Of a stretch of DNA of 64,000 nt, positions 11,737 through 17,908 are shown in pieces. Each line of letters begins with the position of its first letter. Within the stretch, counting starts at the first letter, position 1. The position numbers and the translations under genes are program-made. The notes under the pieces were generated by a model. It saw only the letters and a program-made list of their open reading frames with translations. It ran no database searches and had not been told where the DNA came from. The stretch covers positions 1,674,001 through 1,738,000 of the forward strand of contig NZ_CP032098.1 in NCBI RefSeq assembly GCF_003544935.1, given 5' to 3'. Origin of the DNA: Malaciobacter molluscorum LMG 25693. Lineage in GTDB: Bacteria; Campylobacterota; Campylobacteria; Campylobacterales; Arcobacteraceae.

Positions 11737-13065
11737 CTACAAGATATATCTTGCTGTATCTTCATTTTCAACAATATCATCAAGTTTTTCTTCAACTAAA
11801 GCTTCATCAATTATAATTGTTTCACCTTTTTTTTCATCAGCAGAAAAACTTATATCTTCTATTACTTTTTCAATTACAGTATGTAATCTTCTAGCTCCAA
11901 TATCTTCTGTTTTTTCATTTGCACTTACAGAATATTTTGCAAAAGCTCTAATTGCTTCATCTTTAAATTCTAAAGTAACACCTTCAACTTCAAGAAGTGC
12001 TTTATATTGTCTAAGTAATGAATTTTTTGTATTTGTAAGAATTTTATAAAGTGCTTCTTCATCTAAAGAATTCAATTCAACTCTTAAAGGAAATCTTCCT
12101 TGTAATTCTGGAAGTAAATCACTTGGCTTAGAAACATGGAATGCACCAGCAGCTATAAATAAAATATGATCTGTTTTTACTTGACCAAATTTTGTTTGAA
12201 CACTACTTCCTTCTACTATAGGAAGTAAATCTCTTTGAACACCCTCTTTTGATGGATCTTGATTTTGTGTTTTTGAACTTGTTGCAATTTTATCAATTTC
12301 ATCTAAGAAAATTATCCCACCATTTTCAGCTCTTTTAATCGCTTCGATTTTAATTGCTTCTTGGTCTAATAATTTTTCACTTGCCACATCTTTTAATAAA
12401 ACTTTTGCATCTTTAATTGACACTTCTTTTTTTACTTTTTCTTTGTTTAATCCACCTAACATCTTAGATAAACTTTCTTGCATTGAAGTCATATCCATTG
12501 GCATTGATGAGTCAATTATTTCTACATGTGTTTTTTTAGGAAGTTCAATTTCAATTTTTTTATCATCTAATTGTCCACTTAAAAGTTTCTCTTCCATTTT
12601 GTTATAAGTTTTAATAAATGACTCTTTTGCACTTTCACTTGCACCTTCAGGAAGAGGAGGAACTAATTTTTCAATAATTTGTTTATTTACTTCATCACCA
12701 ATTTTATCTGCAATTTTTTCTTCATACTCTTTTGTTACAAGATTAATCGATTCATAAACTAAATCTCTTATCATTGATTCTACATCTCTTCCAACAAAAC
12801 CAACTTCTGTATATTTACTCGCTTCAACTTTTACAAAAGGAAGTCCCATCATTTTTGCCAATCTTCTAGCAATTTCAGTTTTACCTACACCTGTACTTCC
12901 AATCATTAGAATATTTTTAGGCATAATTTCTTCTTGTAAGGCTGGCTCAACTTGCATTCTTCTAAATCTATTTCGTAGTGCTAATGCAATTGTCTTTTTT
13001 GCATTATCTTGACCAATAATATAATCGTCTAAATATTCAACAATTTGTTTAGGAGTTAAATCCAT
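11737..13065 (-). CDS. hslU: ATP-dependent protease ATPase subunit HslU (ClpY)
   Basis: This 442-residue AAA+ unfoldase has Walker A GSTGVGKT (56-63) and Walker B IIFLDEIDKIA (about 250). A sensor/arginine-finger region contains ELQGRFP and EDIGARRLHTVIEK. An insertion (I) domain lies between them, as expected. HslU unfolds substrates and feeds them to HslV; its C-terminal tail (ARYIL) docks into HslV. The start ATG at 13065 follows the hslV stop by 1 bp with AGAGGA before it. HslVU is made under heat shock in many bacteria; no operator is obvious here. Confidence 0.98.
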   Translation of the reverse strand: MDLTPKQIVEYLDDYIIGQDNAKKTIALALRNRFRRMQVEPALQEEIMPKNILMIGSTGVGKTEIARRLAKMMGLPFVKVEASKYTEVGFVGRDVESMIRDLVYESINLVTKEYEEKIADKIGDEVNKQIIEKLVPPLPEGASESAKESFIKTYNKMEEKLLSGQLDDKKIEIELPKKTHVEIIDSSMPMDMTSMQESLSKMLGGLNKEKVKKEVSIKDAKVLLKDVASEKLLDQEAIKIEAIKRAENGGIIFLDEIDKIATSSKTQNQDPSKEGVQRDLLPIVEGSSVQTKFGQVKTDHILFIAAGAFHVSKPSDLLPELQGRFPLRVELNSLDEEALYKILTNTKNSLLRQYKALLEVEGVTLEFKDEAIRAFAKYSVSANEKTEDIGARRLHTVIEKVIEDISFSADEKKGETIIIDEALVEEKLDDIVENEDTARYIL

Positions 13066-13066
13066 A

Positions 13067-13603
13067 TTAATCCTCTATTTTTAAAATTTTTATATTTTGA
13101 TTTGTATATATACATAAATCACCAGCAATCATAAGTGATTCTTTCACTAAATCTTCTGGTTGTAAATTTGAGTGTTTTGCAAGTGCTCTCGCAGCTGATA
13201 TTGCAAAATTACCTCCACTTCCAATTGAAGCAATTTTACCATCTTCTGGTTCCACTACATCTCCTGTACCACTTAAAATAAATATATGTTCTTTATTTAA
13301 TACAATCATCATAGCTTCTAATCTTCTTAAAACTTTATCTTTTCTCCAAGCTTTAGAAAATGCAATTACTGCTTTTAATAAATCTCCTTTAGTAGTTTGA
13401 AGATGCTCTTCAAACATGTCAAATAGATTAAAAGCATCTGCTGTACTTCCAGCAAAACCTGCTAAAATCTGACCATTATATAATGTTCTAATTTTAGTAG
13501 CATTACCTTTTAATACAGAATTACCAAATGTAACTTGACCATCACCACCAATTACGGCTTGGTTCTCACCTTTATATGCTAATATCGTAGTAGCTTCAAA
13601 CAT
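13067..13603 (-). CDS. hslV: ATP-dependent protease peptidase subunit HslV (ClpQ)
   Basis: This 178-residue threonine peptidase has mature N-terminal Thr in [11 protein letters not shown] (after removal of the first residues), then [11 protein letters not shown] and [10 protein letters not shown]. It forms a double hexamer that degrades proteins unfolded by HslU. It is 5 bp downstream of rplI and 1 bp upstream of hslU, giving an rplI-hslV-hslU unit. Length matches the family (about 175). Start ATG at 13603 with GGAGAG 8 bp upstream. Confidence 0.98.
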
Positions 13604-13608
13604 TATAA

Positions 13609-14055
13609 CTACTCTCCAATAATATCAATTTTTAAATTTGCATGAACTGCATGACCTAATTTACAATCAACTTCATAAATTCCAGGTGCTTTTATTTTTT
13701 TATCAACAGTAATGTTCTTTTTATCAATAATAATTTCAAAATCTTTTTCAAGTGCATCACTTATCTCTTTATTTGTAACTGAACCAATTAAATGTCCATT
13801 TGCACCAATTTTATGTTTGATTGTTAATTTTGTAGCATTAAGTTTTTCAGCTAAAATTTCTGCTTGTGCAATCTCTTCAGCTTCTATTTCTTTTTCTCTT
13901 TTCTTTTGAGCTTCATATTTTTTTAGTACATCATTAGTAGCATGTAAAGCCAGTCCTTTTCCTATTAAGAAGTTTTTACCATATCCATCTTTTACTTCTT
14001 TTACTTCACCAGCTTTACCTAAGCTTTTCACATCTTTTATTAATAATACTTTCAC
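13609..14055 (-). CDS. rplI: 50S ribosomal protein L9
   Basis: This 148-residue protein has the L9 N-terminal signature ([20 protein letters not shown]), a long connecting helix and a C-terminal 23S-binding domain ending LKIDIIGE. It binds domain V of 23S rRNA and lengthens the large subunit. The start is GTG at 14055 with GGAG 7 bp upstream. It is followed at 5 bp by hslV. The 68-bp gap to the recombinase-like gene upstream contains a TACAAT-like -10 element, a likely promoter for the rplI-hslVU run. Confidence 0.97.
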
Positions 14056-14123: not shown

Positions 14124-14765
14124 TTAACTTGCTATGTCAAGAGTATTTTTCAAATTCTCTCTTATATTTCTTTTTTTAACATAATTATTCAATCCTATAT
14201 GATTACTATATCCTAATAATTTTGCTATTTTTCTAACTGATAATCCTACAGATAAAAGTTCTTCTATTTTTTCTCTTTGTGAATCAAATTTTGATTTTTG
14301 AATAGTACCTTTTGGTTTACCAAGATGAGCACCTTCTAATTTTTTTGCAGTTAATGCTTCTTTAGTTCTAATACTCATTAACTCTTTTTCAAGTTTTAAT
14401 GTCATAGAAATTACACCTAATATCATTTGAGTTAACATATCATTATCATCAATCAAATCTAAATTTTGTTTAATCACAATAATTCTAATTTTATTGCTAA
14501 GTAAAAATTTAACTATTTCTAAAATAGTTTCAGTAGTTCTAGCAAATACATTTAAATCTGCAACCAAAAGTGTTGTTTTACTTTGACAATTTTTTAGAAA
14601 ATCCAACATATTTTTTTCTTCATTTGGAGTATTAATTTCTATCTCTATACTTTGAAAAATTTTAATATTTTTCTTATGAATATAATCTTCCAAAATCTTT
14701 TTTTGTTGTTGAGTATATGACTCATTATTTTTATTCACACGAACGAAACTGAAAATTTTAGACAC
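14124..14765 (-). CDS. Serine-recombinase homologue lacking catalytic residues, with C-terminal DNA-binding domain
   Basis: The 213 residues have the layout of a resolvase/invertase. An N-terminal domain (about 1-130) is followed by the dimer helix (MTLKLEKELMSIRTKEAL), the linker AKKLEGAHLGKPKG, and a C-terminal helix-turn-helix (about 165-200, LSVRKIAKLLGYSNH). The usual RVST at the active site is R-V-N-K here (Arg9, Asn11), so the nucleophilic serine is gone. The usual LDRLGRS is DLNVFART, losing the Asp-Arg pair. The DNA-binding half therefore looks kept and the strand-cleaving half dead. It is probably a DNA-binding regulator or architectural protein rather than an active recombinase. 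There are no partner sites or mobile-element genes beside it. The start at ATG or GTG near 14765 has AAAGGA upstream. Confidence 0.85.
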   Translation of the reverse strand: MSKIFSFVRVNKNNESYTQQQKKILEDYIHKKNIKIFQSIEIEINTPNEEKNMLDFLKNCQSKTTLLVADLNVFARTTETILEIVKFLLSNKIRIIVIKQNLDLIDDNDMLTQMILGVISMTLKLEKELMSIRTKEALTAKKLEGAHLGKPKGTIQKSKFDSQREKIEELLSVGLSVRKIAKLLGYSNHIGLNNYVKKRNIRENLKNTLDIAS

Positions 14766-15079
14766 AATAGTTCCTTTACATTAAGTATTATATTTATATT
14801 ATATTATAAACATTTTGTATTAGTTTTAATATTTTAATTTATACGAAATGTTAATACAATTTGAATAAATATATTCTTAATTTCTTCTTATTAAGTCCAT
14901 TTTTTTCAATATTTATATATTTTTGTTATACAAGAAATAGTTATACATTTTGAAAAACATCAAAAAGTAAACTATTAAAGCTCTTTGAATTATTTTTTAA
15001 ATTTTTTTATTTGATTTGCTATAAAGTATTTTTTAGCTAATATCTATTTTGTTTATTTAACCTTATCAAAGGATTTGTA
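14766..15079. promoter_or_regulatory. Repeat-rich intergenic region between divergent recombinase-like gene and ubiX
   Basis: This 314-bp region has no convincing gene. It contains an imperfect inverted repeat: AACATTTTGTAT at 14809-14820 and ATACGAAATGTT at 14841-14852 (one mismatch, 20-bp gap). Next to it TTGTATTA (14815-14822) and TAATACAA (14852-14859) form another pair. ACATTTTG recurs at 14945-14952, and GTTATACA occurs twice, at 14925-14932 and 14940-14947. AT-rich -10-like elements are plentiful. These are candidate binding sites for the adjacent recombinase-like protein or another dimeric regulator of the divergent promoters. Evidence is the repeats only. Confidence 0.5.
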
Positions 15080-15634
15080 TTGAAATTAGTTGTTGCTATA
15101 ACAGGAGCAAGTGGAGCAAGTTTAACTCTTAAATTTGTTGATAAACTTCCTGAAAATATTGATGTTTACTTAGTAGTTTCAAATAGTGCAAAAACAGCTT
15201 TGAAACTTGAAGAAAATATCTCAATAAGAAACTATTTTGACAAAAAAGAAAATATAACTATTTTAAAAGACAATAATATATCAGCATGTATTGCATCTGG
15301 TTCTTTTGGTGTTGATAAAATGATTGTATTACCATGTTCTATGAATACTCTTGCAAAATGTGCAGTAGGAATTTCAGATACTTTAATCACTAGAGCTTTT
15401 ACGGTAATGTTAAAACAAAAAAAAGATATTATTTTAGCACCTAGGGAAATGCCTTATAATCCAATTATTTTAGAAAATATGTTGAAATTATCTAAACTTG
15501 GTATAACTATTGCTCCTCCAAATCTTGGGTATTATTCAAAACAACAAACTCTTGAAGATATGGAAAATTTTTTAATTGGTAAATGGTTTGATTTATTAGG
15601 TATTGAAAATAATTTATATAAAAGATGGGAATAG
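15080..15634 (+). CDS. ubiX: Flavin prenyltransferase UbiX
   Basis: This 184-residue protein has the FMN-binding ITGASGAS (7-14) and the conserved PCSMNTLAKCAVGISDTLITRA and LAPREMPYN segments. UbiX attaches a dimethylallyl group to FMN to make prenylated FMN for UbiD-type decarboxylases, used in quinone synthesis. No ubiD is in the window. The start is TTG at 15080, with AAAGGA 7 bp before it. It begins a long plus-strand run with coaD, tmk and hisS; coaD starts 3 bp after its stop. Confidence 0.95.
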   Translation: MKLVVAITGASGASLTLKFVDKLPENIDVYLVVSNSAKTALKLEENISIRNYFDKKENITILKDNNISACIASGSFGVDKMIVLPCSMNTLAKCAVGISDTLITRAFTVMLKQKKDIILAPREMPYNPIILENMLKLSKLGITIAPPNLGYYSKQQTLEDMENFLIGKWFDLLGIENNLYKRWE

Positions 15635-15637
15635 ATC

Positions 15638-16132
15638 ATGGAGAATAACACACAACCAAATGAGGGATCTTATAAAAAAGCTATTTATAGTGGAACATTT
15701 GATCCAATTACAAATGGACATATGGACATCATAAGACGTGCTTCATTTATTTTTGATGAAGTAGTTATAGCTGTTGCAAAAAGTGAAGCAAAAAATCCAA
15801 TGTTCTCACACGAACAAAGAGTAGAATTTGCGAAACAAGCAACAAAAGATTTATCAAAAGTAAAAGTTATAGGTTTTGATACATTATTAGTTGAATTAGC
15901 AACTGAAATGAAAATAAATACAATAATAAGAGGATTAAGAGCAGTAAGTGACTTTGAATATGAGTTACAAATGGGCTATGCTAACTCCTCAATAAATAAA
16001 AATATAGAAACACTTTATTTAATGCCCACTTTAAAAAATGCTTTCGTTAGCTCTACAATAGTAAGAGAATTAATTAGATTTAATGGAAGCTTTTTTCATC
16101 TTGTACCAAAAGAAGTTTTAGAATGTATATAG
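15638..16132 (+). CDS. coaD: Phosphopantetheine adenylyltransferase
   Basis: This 164-residue nucleotidyltransferase has the HxGH-like loop in GTFDPITNGH and the C-terminal VSSTIVREL. CoaD adenylates 4'-phosphopantetheine, the fourth step of coenzyme A synthesis. Homologues usually begin near MKKAIYSGTF; the chosen ATG adds about 12 polar residues (ENNTQPNEGSY). It has GATGGGA upstream and no good internal start is seen, so the extension is kept. The end overlaps tmk by 10 bp. Confidence 0.96.
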   Translation: MENNTQPNEGSYKKAIYSGTFDPITNGHMDIIRRASFIFDEVVIAVAKSEAKNPMFSHEQRVEFAKQATKDLSKVKVIGFDTLLVELATEMKINTIIRGLRAVSDFEYELQMGYANSSINKNIETLYLMPTLKNAFVSSTIVRELIRFNGSFFHLVPKEVLECI

Positions 16133-16689
16133 TTATAGAAGGGATTGATACAGCTGGAAAATCTACACAATTAGATATTTTAGCTAACAAATATAAAGAT
16201 GCTGTTTTTACAAAAGAGCCAGGTGGAACAAAAATTGGATCAAAATTAAGACAGATGGTTTTAGGTGGAGAAGCAAAATCAAAACTTGCTGAAATGTTTT
16301 TATTTCTTGCAGATAGAGCAGAACATATGCAAGAAATTGTAAATAAGAATAAAAATAAAATTGTTATTTCTGATAGATCAATGATATCTGGTATTGCATA
16401 TGCAAAACATTTACCATTAGATGATGTAATAAAACTAAATTTATTAGCAACAGAAAATACTCTTCCAAGTCATGTTATTTTATTAAAATTATCAAAAGAA
16501 GAATTGAAGAAAAGATTATCTTTAAAGGAACATGATTCAATTGAATCAAGGGGAATTGATTATTTAATAGATATTCAAAATAGAATGGAAGAGACAATTA
16601 AAAAATTAAATTTAAATTATATATTTATAGATGCAAGTTTAAGTATTGAAAAGATTTCAAAAAATATAGAGGATTTTTTAAATGAGTAA
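16123..16689 (+). CDS. tmk: Thymidylate kinase
   Basis: This 188-residue P-loop kinase has the nucleotide-binding EGIDTAGKSTQ (about 5-15), the dTMP-binding EPGGTKIG and the DRSMISGIAYA motif. It converts dTMP to dTDP. The family is usually about 205 residues, so this is a slightly short version with a compact LID, as seen in other Campylobacterota. It starts inside the 3' end of coaD (10-bp overlap) and ends overlapping hisS by 8 bp, so the three genes are probably translated in a coupled fashion. Confidence 0.95.
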   Translation: MYIVIEGIDTAGKSTQLDILANKYKDAVFTKEPGGTKIGSKLRQMVLGGEAKSKLAEMFLFLADRAEHMQEIVNKNKNKIVISDRSMISGIAYAKHLPLDDVIKLNLLATENTLPSHVILLKLSKEELKKRLSLKEHDSIESRGIDYLIDIQNRMEETIKKLNLNYIFIDASLSIEKISKNIEDFLNE

Positions 16690-17908
16690 AGAAAAAGTTA
16701 TACAAAGCCTAAGGGGGATGAAAGACATATCAAACGAAGAGAGTAAACTATTTACTTACTTCTGTGAGAATGCTGCAAAAATTGCAAAGAATTATGGTTT
16801 TGAATATATAGAAACACCTATTTTAGAAGAGACTTCACTATTTAAAAGAAGTGTGGGAGAGAGTTCAGATATTGTAAATAAAGAGATGTATCAATTTATA
16901 GACAAAGGTGAAAATGATGTTTGTTTAAGACCTGAAGGAACAGCTGGTGTTGTAAGAAGTTTTATTCAAAATAAATTAGATAGAGCTGGTGGTATAAAAA
17001 AATGGTACTACCATGGTCCAATGTTTAGATATGAAAGACCACAAAAAGGAAGATTAAGAGAGTTCCACCAGTTTGGGGTTGAAGTATTTGGAATAAGCTC
17101 TGTTTATGAAGATGCAAATATAATAATGATGTTAAAAGAAATATTAGATTTTTTTCAAATAGGACATAAACTTCAATTAAACTCTTTAGGTTGTAAAGAA
17201 TGTATGCCAATATATAGAGAAAATCTAGTAAAACATCTTACAAGTTTTAAAGAAGAACTTTGTGAAGATTGTAATAGAAGAATAAAAACTAATCCAATTA
17301 GGGTATTAGATTGTAAAAATGAGAAGTGTCAAAATCTATTAAAAGATGCTCCAAAAATTACATATAATTTATGTAATTCATGTAATGAGGATTTCAATAA
17401 ATTAAAAGAAATATTAGATTTTAATAATGTCGATTATGAAATAGATTCTAACCTTGTTAGAGGTTTAGATTATTATTCTAAAACTGCCTTTGAATTTGTA
17501 AGTGATGAAATTGGTTCTCAAAGTGCAATTGCAGGTGGAGGAAGATATGATAGATTAGTAGAATTTTTGGGAGGACGTGAGACTCCTGGTGTAGGATTTG
17601 CAATAGGAATTGAAAGATTATTAGAATTAGTAAAAATAAATGAAAAAAGCGAAGACATCTATTATGTTGGGGCATTAAGTGAAGATGCTTTAAACCAAGC
17701 TATAAAAGTGGCAAATTTAAAAAGAAAAACAAATAAAACATATATAGAATATACTCCAAGAGGTTTTGGTAAACATTTTAATCTTGCAGAAAAAAATGGT
17801 GCGAATATTGTGGTTTTAATTGGTGATGATGAATTAAAATCTAATATGTTGTATGTTAAAAACATTTCAACACAAGAAGAAAAAAAGATAAAAGTTGAGG
17901 AATTGTAA
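16682..17908 (+). CDS. hisS: Histidine-tRNA ligase
   Basis: This 408-residue class II synthetase has motif 2 (KKWYYHGPMFRYERPQKGR), the histidine-binding RGLDYYSKTAFEF and motif 3 (PGVGFAIGIERLLEL). A Cys pair cluster (CKECMPIY, CEDCNRR, CNSCNEDF) sits in the insertion domain and may bind zinc. The C-terminal anticodon-binding domain begins at about 325. The start ATG overlaps tmk by 8 bp. speA follows 2 bp after the stop. Confidence 0.97.
   Translation: MSKEKVIQSLRGMKDISNEESKLFTYFCENAAKIAKNYGFEYIETPILEETSLFKRSVGESSDIVNKEMYQFIDKGENDVCLRPEGTAGVVRSFIQNKLDRAGGIKKWYYHGPMFRYERPQKGRLREFHQFGVEVFGISSVYEDANIIMMLKEILDFFQIGHKLQLNSLGCKECMPIYRENLVKHLTSFKEELCEDCNRRIKTNPIRVLDCKNEKCQNLLKDAPKITYNLCNSCNEDFNKLKEILDFNNVDYEIDSNLVRGLDYYSKTAFEFVSDEIGSQSAIAGGGRYDRLVEFLGGRETPGVGFAIGIERLLELVKINEKSEDIYYVGALSEDALNQAIKVANLKRKTNKTYIEYTPRGFGKHFNLAEKNGANIVVLIGDDELKSNMLYVKNISTQEEKKIKVEEL

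Follow-up and report, generated by a model that had tools for sequence, protein, structure and literature searches.

That enzymes of mobile elements can be exapted is well established. In Tn3, the tnpR and tnpA promoters are located within res, and the binding of resolvase autoregulates both (PMC7157771). A review of recruited mobile elements discusses Hin-type invertases, and its authors know of no serine resolvase serving chromosome segregation (PMC8987985). The cases of serine-recombinase exaptation found in the searched literature involve active enzymes; neither a dead serine resolvase acting as a regulator nor an account of the Arcobacteraceae gene analyzed here was found in the open-access text searched. 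This gene, located in a window of 64,000 nucleotides (the whole stretch of Malaciobacter molluscorum DNA that was analyzed), belongs to the known kind of mobile-element exaptation but is a new variant, with catalytic residues and crossover core lost and the binding parts kept.

The gene is an intact open reading frame that starts with GTG and comprises 213 codons (Table 1). Pfam analysis of the protein revealed a Resolvase N-terminal domain (PF00239, E 3e-16) and an HTH_38 domain (E 1e-6). The AlphaFold model, for which the input was 32 aligned sequences, had a mean pLDDT of 86 and showed a resolvase fold with a long helix and a C-terminal helix-turn-helix (HTH), and its best PDB matches were the Tn3 and gamma-delta resolvase-DNA complexes. 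The N-terminal domain, the C-terminal HTH and the matching structure place the protein in the resolvase/invertase subfamily of the serine recombinase superfamily.

Among the described systems, the Tn3-family TnpR proteins (nearest intact loci L086, L096 and L105 among the best 80 loci) share the fold, linker and HTH with this protein, and the TnpR-res module shares the half-site sequence, the spacing of the upstream elements and the divergent gene layout; the two groups are sister clades. Unlike in Tn3-family TnpR, Ser10, Arg68 and the AACGNNCGTT core are lost here, ubiX-coaD-tmk occupies the place of tnpA, and the gene is an inherited chromosomal gene present nearly throughout the family rather than a mobile one. 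The best-scoring NCBIfam model was that of the Mpi family master DNA invertase (PRK13413), which has a similar length and domain order; an assignment to Mpi-type DNA invertases was rejected: the score of 84.8 bits is far below the cutoff of 272, and there is no intact catalytic motif. The resolvase catalytic fold is also common to IS607-type TnpA and the large serine integrases, which differ in domain order or size.

Table 1. Coordinates of the features in the window and, in the last four rows, of members of a second resolvase-like group in their own loci
Feature	Position	Strand	Basis
Degenerate serine resolvase homologue, tnpR-like	14124..14765	-	ORF, Pfam, alignment, AlphaFold
Codon 11 (Asn), aligned with catalytic Ser10 of gamma-delta resolvase	14733..14735	-	alignment
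Codon 73 (Val), aligned with catalytic Arg68 of gamma-delta resolvase	14547..14549	-	alignment
Long helix E, residues 110-143 (dimer helix in resolvases)	14337..14438	-	AlphaFold model, conservation
C-terminal HTH, residues 157-198	14172..14297	-	AlphaFold model, conservation
Element C, TTTACATTAAGTATTA, adjoins ribosome-binding site	14775..14790	+	family upstream alignment
Element B, TAAACATTTTGTATTA, inverted relative to A	14807..14822	+	family upstream alignment
Element A, TTAACATTTCGTATAA, near-invariant half-site	14839..14854	-	family upstream alignment
Element E1, TTAAGAATATATTTA (consensus TTAAGcTTAnnnTTAA), res site I region	14866..14880	-	family upstream alignment
Divergent ubiX-coaD-tmk-hisS	15080..17908	+	Pfam for ubiX; other names from translations
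rplI-hslV-hslU, downstream of the gene	11737..14055	-	Pfam for rplI
CcoG-linked group member, L151	4942-5565		
CcoG-linked group member, L152	4769-5449		
CcoG-linked group member, L153	5171-5821		
CcoG-linked group member, L154	4949-5644		

Catalytic residues, DNA-binding domain and inheritance

The catalytic residues were assessed in an alignment with gamma-delta resolvase and 27 non-redundant intact-motif relatives from outside the family, taken from the best 80 loci. The position of Ser10 is occupied by Asn, in agreement with the first-pass annotation, which had read the catalytic serine as replaced. Of the active-site arginines, Arg8 and Arg71 (codon 76) are kept and Arg68 is changed to Val; the position of Tyr6 holds Phe, and the Arg-rich SSRKTSKQRR around Arg45 of gamma-delta resolvase is replaced, with a deletion of two residues. 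The same annotation had described an Asp-Arg pair as replaced. The change of Arg68 is informative, but the Asp preceding it is not diagnostic because the intact relatives themselves carry Ser there.

The homologue search that the annotation had proposed recovered the same substitutions across Arcobacteraceae: of 64 non-redundant sequences, 59 carried Asn at the Ser10 position, 3 carried Ile and 2 had a gap, while the Arg68 position held Val in 62 and Ala and Ser in one sequence each. Ser at position 10 occurred in genus g8 only, in which four small genomes carry divergent orthologs; in the two that were read, position 10 was Ser, and both Arg8 and Arg68 were lost. These orthologs (L120 and L121 in genomes G012 and G029; also in G090 and G091) have a very different N-terminal domain and a conserved HTH, and their gene is displaced from ubiX. 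Judged from the alignment, catalysis is very likely absent in the 213-amino-acid protein.

The dimer helix, linker and HTH had been described as normal in appearance, and helix E is long in the model (Table 1). Within residues 159-205, in the HTH region, 32 of 47 positions were near-invariant in 64 family sequences, and the consensus residue was common to Arcobacteraceae and the intact tnpR relatives at 31 of the 47. The pooled pN/pS of 22 close pairs was 0.106 for the whole gene, and 0.134, 0.080 and 0.056 for residues 2-108, helix E, and the linker with the HTH, respectively; dN/dS in close pairs was approximately 0.01-0.17. Purifying selection acts on every part of the gene and most strongly on the DNA-binding part, and the value of 0.13 in residues 2-108 indicates that it extends to the former catalytic domain.

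With a threshold of E 1e-30, 98 of the 104 Arcobacteraceae genomes had an ortholog, nearly always in single copy, and six genomes were without one. Order-level relatives outside the family gave distant matches only in the same search. The nearest relatives outside Arcobacteraceae among the best 80 loci had 39-45% identity and intact motifs, and their hosts included Legionella, Ktedonobacteria, Chloroflexota and Paracaedibacter. In the maximum-likelihood tree, the Arcobacteraceae orthologs formed one clade (100/99), sister to the intact relatives (97/87). The loss of the residues is dated by these comparisons in or near the Arcobacteraceae ancestor, with vertical inheritance since.

Some Arcobacteraceae genomes also carry intact-motif paralogs at 33-35% identity. 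Some genomes of Arcobacteraceae and of other Campylobacterales encode further resolvase paralogs (L111-L118); their contexts vary, and in most of them RVST-like and SRLGR or SRIGR motifs are intact. The Arcobacteraceae gene was also seen in bins that bear the names Helicobacter pylori, Desulfosporosinus and Sulfurospirillum (L064, L068 and L081), in L064 and L068 with ubiX-coaD-tmk-hisS as neighbours; the organism names of some metagenome bins are doubtful, and these three are probably mislabelled or contaminated.

The upstream array and its relation to res

An AT-rich array of four elements was recognized upstream of the gene in an alignment of 57 non-redundant family sequences. The C and G of the element A consensus TAWCATTTTGTATAA were present in 57 of 57 sequences, and the element usually lies 89-92 bp before the start codon, closer in part of Aliarcobacter. 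Elements B (at about -49, often inverted to A) and C (at about -18) are weaker, and E1 lies at about -115 to -101, so that the array E1-A-B-C covers approximately 115 bp before the start codon; in the window, A and B together measure 36 bp from outer end to outer end. A 130-position profile of the array, applied to 41 genomes, gave strong matches only at the upstream region of the gene itself, with one clear copy per genome, and the next best matches elsewhere were weak (best 8.6e-4; the profile E-values are rough). No clear upstream array was found in genus g8. The upstream region had been called repeat-rich, which is true of it as a conserved array of binding-site-like elements but not as simple repeats; the repeat finder reported no direct-repeat family in this region. 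Between the array and ubiX, an imperfect inverted repeat was observed at 14899-14960 (29-nt arms, 76% complementary, 4-nt loop).

In the intact relatives, a palindrome AACGNNCGTT flanked by half-sites TTTTGTATA was located at about -110 or -120; 20 of the 27 relatives had an exact copy, compared with an expectation of 0.1 obtained by shuffling. Three of three tested intact relatives with a long divergent ORF by the array encode Tn3 tnpA there (PF01526, E 1e-93 or better). In the Arcobacteraceae upstream regions, matches to the AACGNNCGTT core were no better than those in shuffles; the palindromic crossover core of TnpR-res is thus missing in the family. The array upstream of the gene is present, and E1, A, B and C share half-site sequence and spacing with the intact relatives.

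A matrix of element A, built from Arcobacteraceae only, was run on the intact relatives aligned on their core. Its main peaks were approximately 17.5 bp to the left and 18.5 bp to the right of the core centre in inverted orientation, with further peaks at +42 and +60 from the core; the mean scores of the main peaks were -8.8 to -14.8, compared with a maximum of -19.7 over 200 shuffled sets. In individual relatives, element A is seen at about -85 as TTAACATTCTGTAAAT (L086) and ATAACATTTTGTTTAT (L109). Since the peaks flank the core in inverted symmetry, element A is most likely a resolvase half-site. The centre of E1 is displaced by approximately 7 bp from where the core lies in the intact relatives; E1 was therefore placed in the site I region and rejected as an exact copy of site I. 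From these comparisons, the gene most likely kept the res binding layout and lost the crossover core and the catalytic residues.

The neighbours of the gene are housekeeping genes on both sides, the divergent one being ubiX, and no mobile-element gene or transposase was found near it, as the first-pass annotation had noted; a linked tnpA is thus missing at this locus. At almost all of the family loci that could be assessed, ubiX-coaD-tmk is the divergent neighbour of the gene, and this adjacency persists even where rplI-hslV-hslU sits elsewhere. The adjacency to rplI-hslV-hslU was not maintained throughout the family. In genus g4 (L023, L025, L077 and L081), ubiX is not a neighbour; the gene and element A are kept.

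Candidate functions of the protein

We propose, with a probability of roughly 0.7, that the protein is a Tn3 resolvase that lost its catalytic activity and was exapted, and that it binds the former res array and represses its own promoter. The tnpR-res module of a Tn3-family transposon would have been exapted, and the resolvase catalytic residues and the res crossover core would have been lost in or near the Arcobacteraceae ancestor, with the resolvase fold, dimer helix, HTH and res-like half-sites retained. The protein would bind the E1-A-B-C array as a dimer or dimers and thereby repress its own promoter, as Tn3 TnpR does with tnpR and tnpA; the expression of the divergent ubiX-coaD-tmk-hisS may also change. 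We infer both the binding and the repression from sequence. Because the binding domain and the half-sites are kept and catalysis is very likely lost, the simplest function would be the non-catalytic part of the job of TnpR. Domestication as a non-catalytic DNA-binding protein, which had been suggested earlier, is strongly supported by the family-wide, nearly always single-copy and syntenic occurrence, the purifying selection, the near-invariant DNA-binding domain and the co-conserved array. The earlier interpretation as a whole stands in part; it had not included the Tn3/res origin. For a gene that automatic annotation would label as a recombinase, the analysis offers an operator that is precise and open to testing, together with a likely autoregulatory circuit. 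In genus g8, with a displaced gene, Ser at position 10 and no clear array found, another target or decay is possible.

Autoregulation alone leaves the retention of the gene unexplained. The products of ubiX-coaD-tmk-hisS serve in the supply of prenylated flavin, CoA and dTMP and as histidyl-tRNA synthetase, and a divergent regulator and target are a common layout. It is conceivable, if doubtful, that regulation of this operon, having replaced tnpA beyond res, is the main role and self-repression a secondary one. This would agree with the persistent ubiX-coaD-tmk adjacency and with Tn3, in which res controls both divergent genes (PMC7157771). However, in most loci the likely ubiX -10 (TTTTTGCTATTATC) is found about 35-45 bp ahead of ubiX, and it is not overlapped by element A, whose distance to the ubiX start is 109-288 bp with a median of 146; this leaves control of ubiX uncertain. 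Moreover, the gene and element A are kept in genus g4, where ubiX is not a neighbour, and in genus g8 the gene lies elsewhere. Control of the divergent operon by the dead resolvase is accordingly worded here as possible. Additional TTATACA/TTGTATAA-like half-sites were observed near the ubiX promoter in L009, L038, L039 and their relatives (Poseidonibacter and similar), and these could be additional operators for the ubiX side.

The earlier suggestion of a nucleoid factor is not supported. A global regulator or nucleoid-associated protein acting at many chromosomal sites would suit the strongly conserved DNA-binding domain and the near family-wide presence, but is improbable: with one mismatch allowed, 41 A-type sites were found in the M. 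molluscorum genome compared with 73 for a reversed-pattern control, and exact sites numbered zero to three per family genome, about equal to controls. In 20 sampled regions, the secondary sites were mostly inside ORFs, and no second target shared across genomes was found among them. Pattern searches with zero and one mismatch and the array profile thus gave no excess of sites, and one array per genome together with A-type sites at control level fits a local self-regulating protein better; additional binding of low specificity, to looser sequences, is conceivable. It is also quite improbable that another factor binds the conserved array and that the target of the protein is unrelated to it, as the family matrix of element A detects inverted half-sites around the core of tnpR relatives from other phyla, and both groups have most of the HTH consensus in common. 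That the protein still recombines DNA, through another nucleophile or an intact partner, is very improbable; the fold, Arg8 and Arg71 are retained and some family genomes hold the intact paralogs described above, but Ser10, Arg68 and the crossover core are all lost, the homologue search gave no second match in the M. molluscorum genome, and the single-copy array leaves no partner site for recombination. As to a decaying remnant, the missing catalytic residues, the six genomes without the gene and the divergent g8 versions would fit, but nearly all copies are open reading frames, dN/dS is low, and the HTH and the array are conserved together, so that we give this reading next to no weight. A recent pseudogene is ruled out by purifying selection and the distribution over 98 of 104 genomes. 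Of the two observations that had been named as refuting domestication, close relatives with intact motifs were not found inside the family, only outside it at the identities given above, and a lack of selection on the DNA-binding domain is contradicted by its pN/pS.

A second resolvase-like group in Campylobacterales

Another group of Campylobacterales genes (L119 and L125-L127; further members in Table 1), located by a CcoG/FixG-like gene, encodes a resolvase-like N-terminal domain without the catalytic residues. Like the Arcobacteraceae gene, it has a resolvase-type HTH and repeated boxes upstream of its own gene, but it differs in forming a separate clade and in its shortened helix E, TGACGA boxes and other neighbours. 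For the Arcobacteraceae gene, a more far-reaching proposal, which we put forward tentatively and think rather unlikely, is that the resolvase-res switch was captured whole, with ubiX-coaD-tmk-hisS replacing tnpA, and that the dead resolvase tunes both this operon and itself throughout the family. On this reading, the existence of the second group would suggest that such a capture took place more than once in Campylobacterales. Of 150 genomes of the order, nearly 60 gave a match to the CcoG-linked group with a threshold of E 1e-28. Its members belong to several families of Campylobacterales other than Arcobacteraceae, and most of them adjoin or lie close to the CcoG/FixG-like gene and a pyridine-nucleotide oxidoreductase gene.
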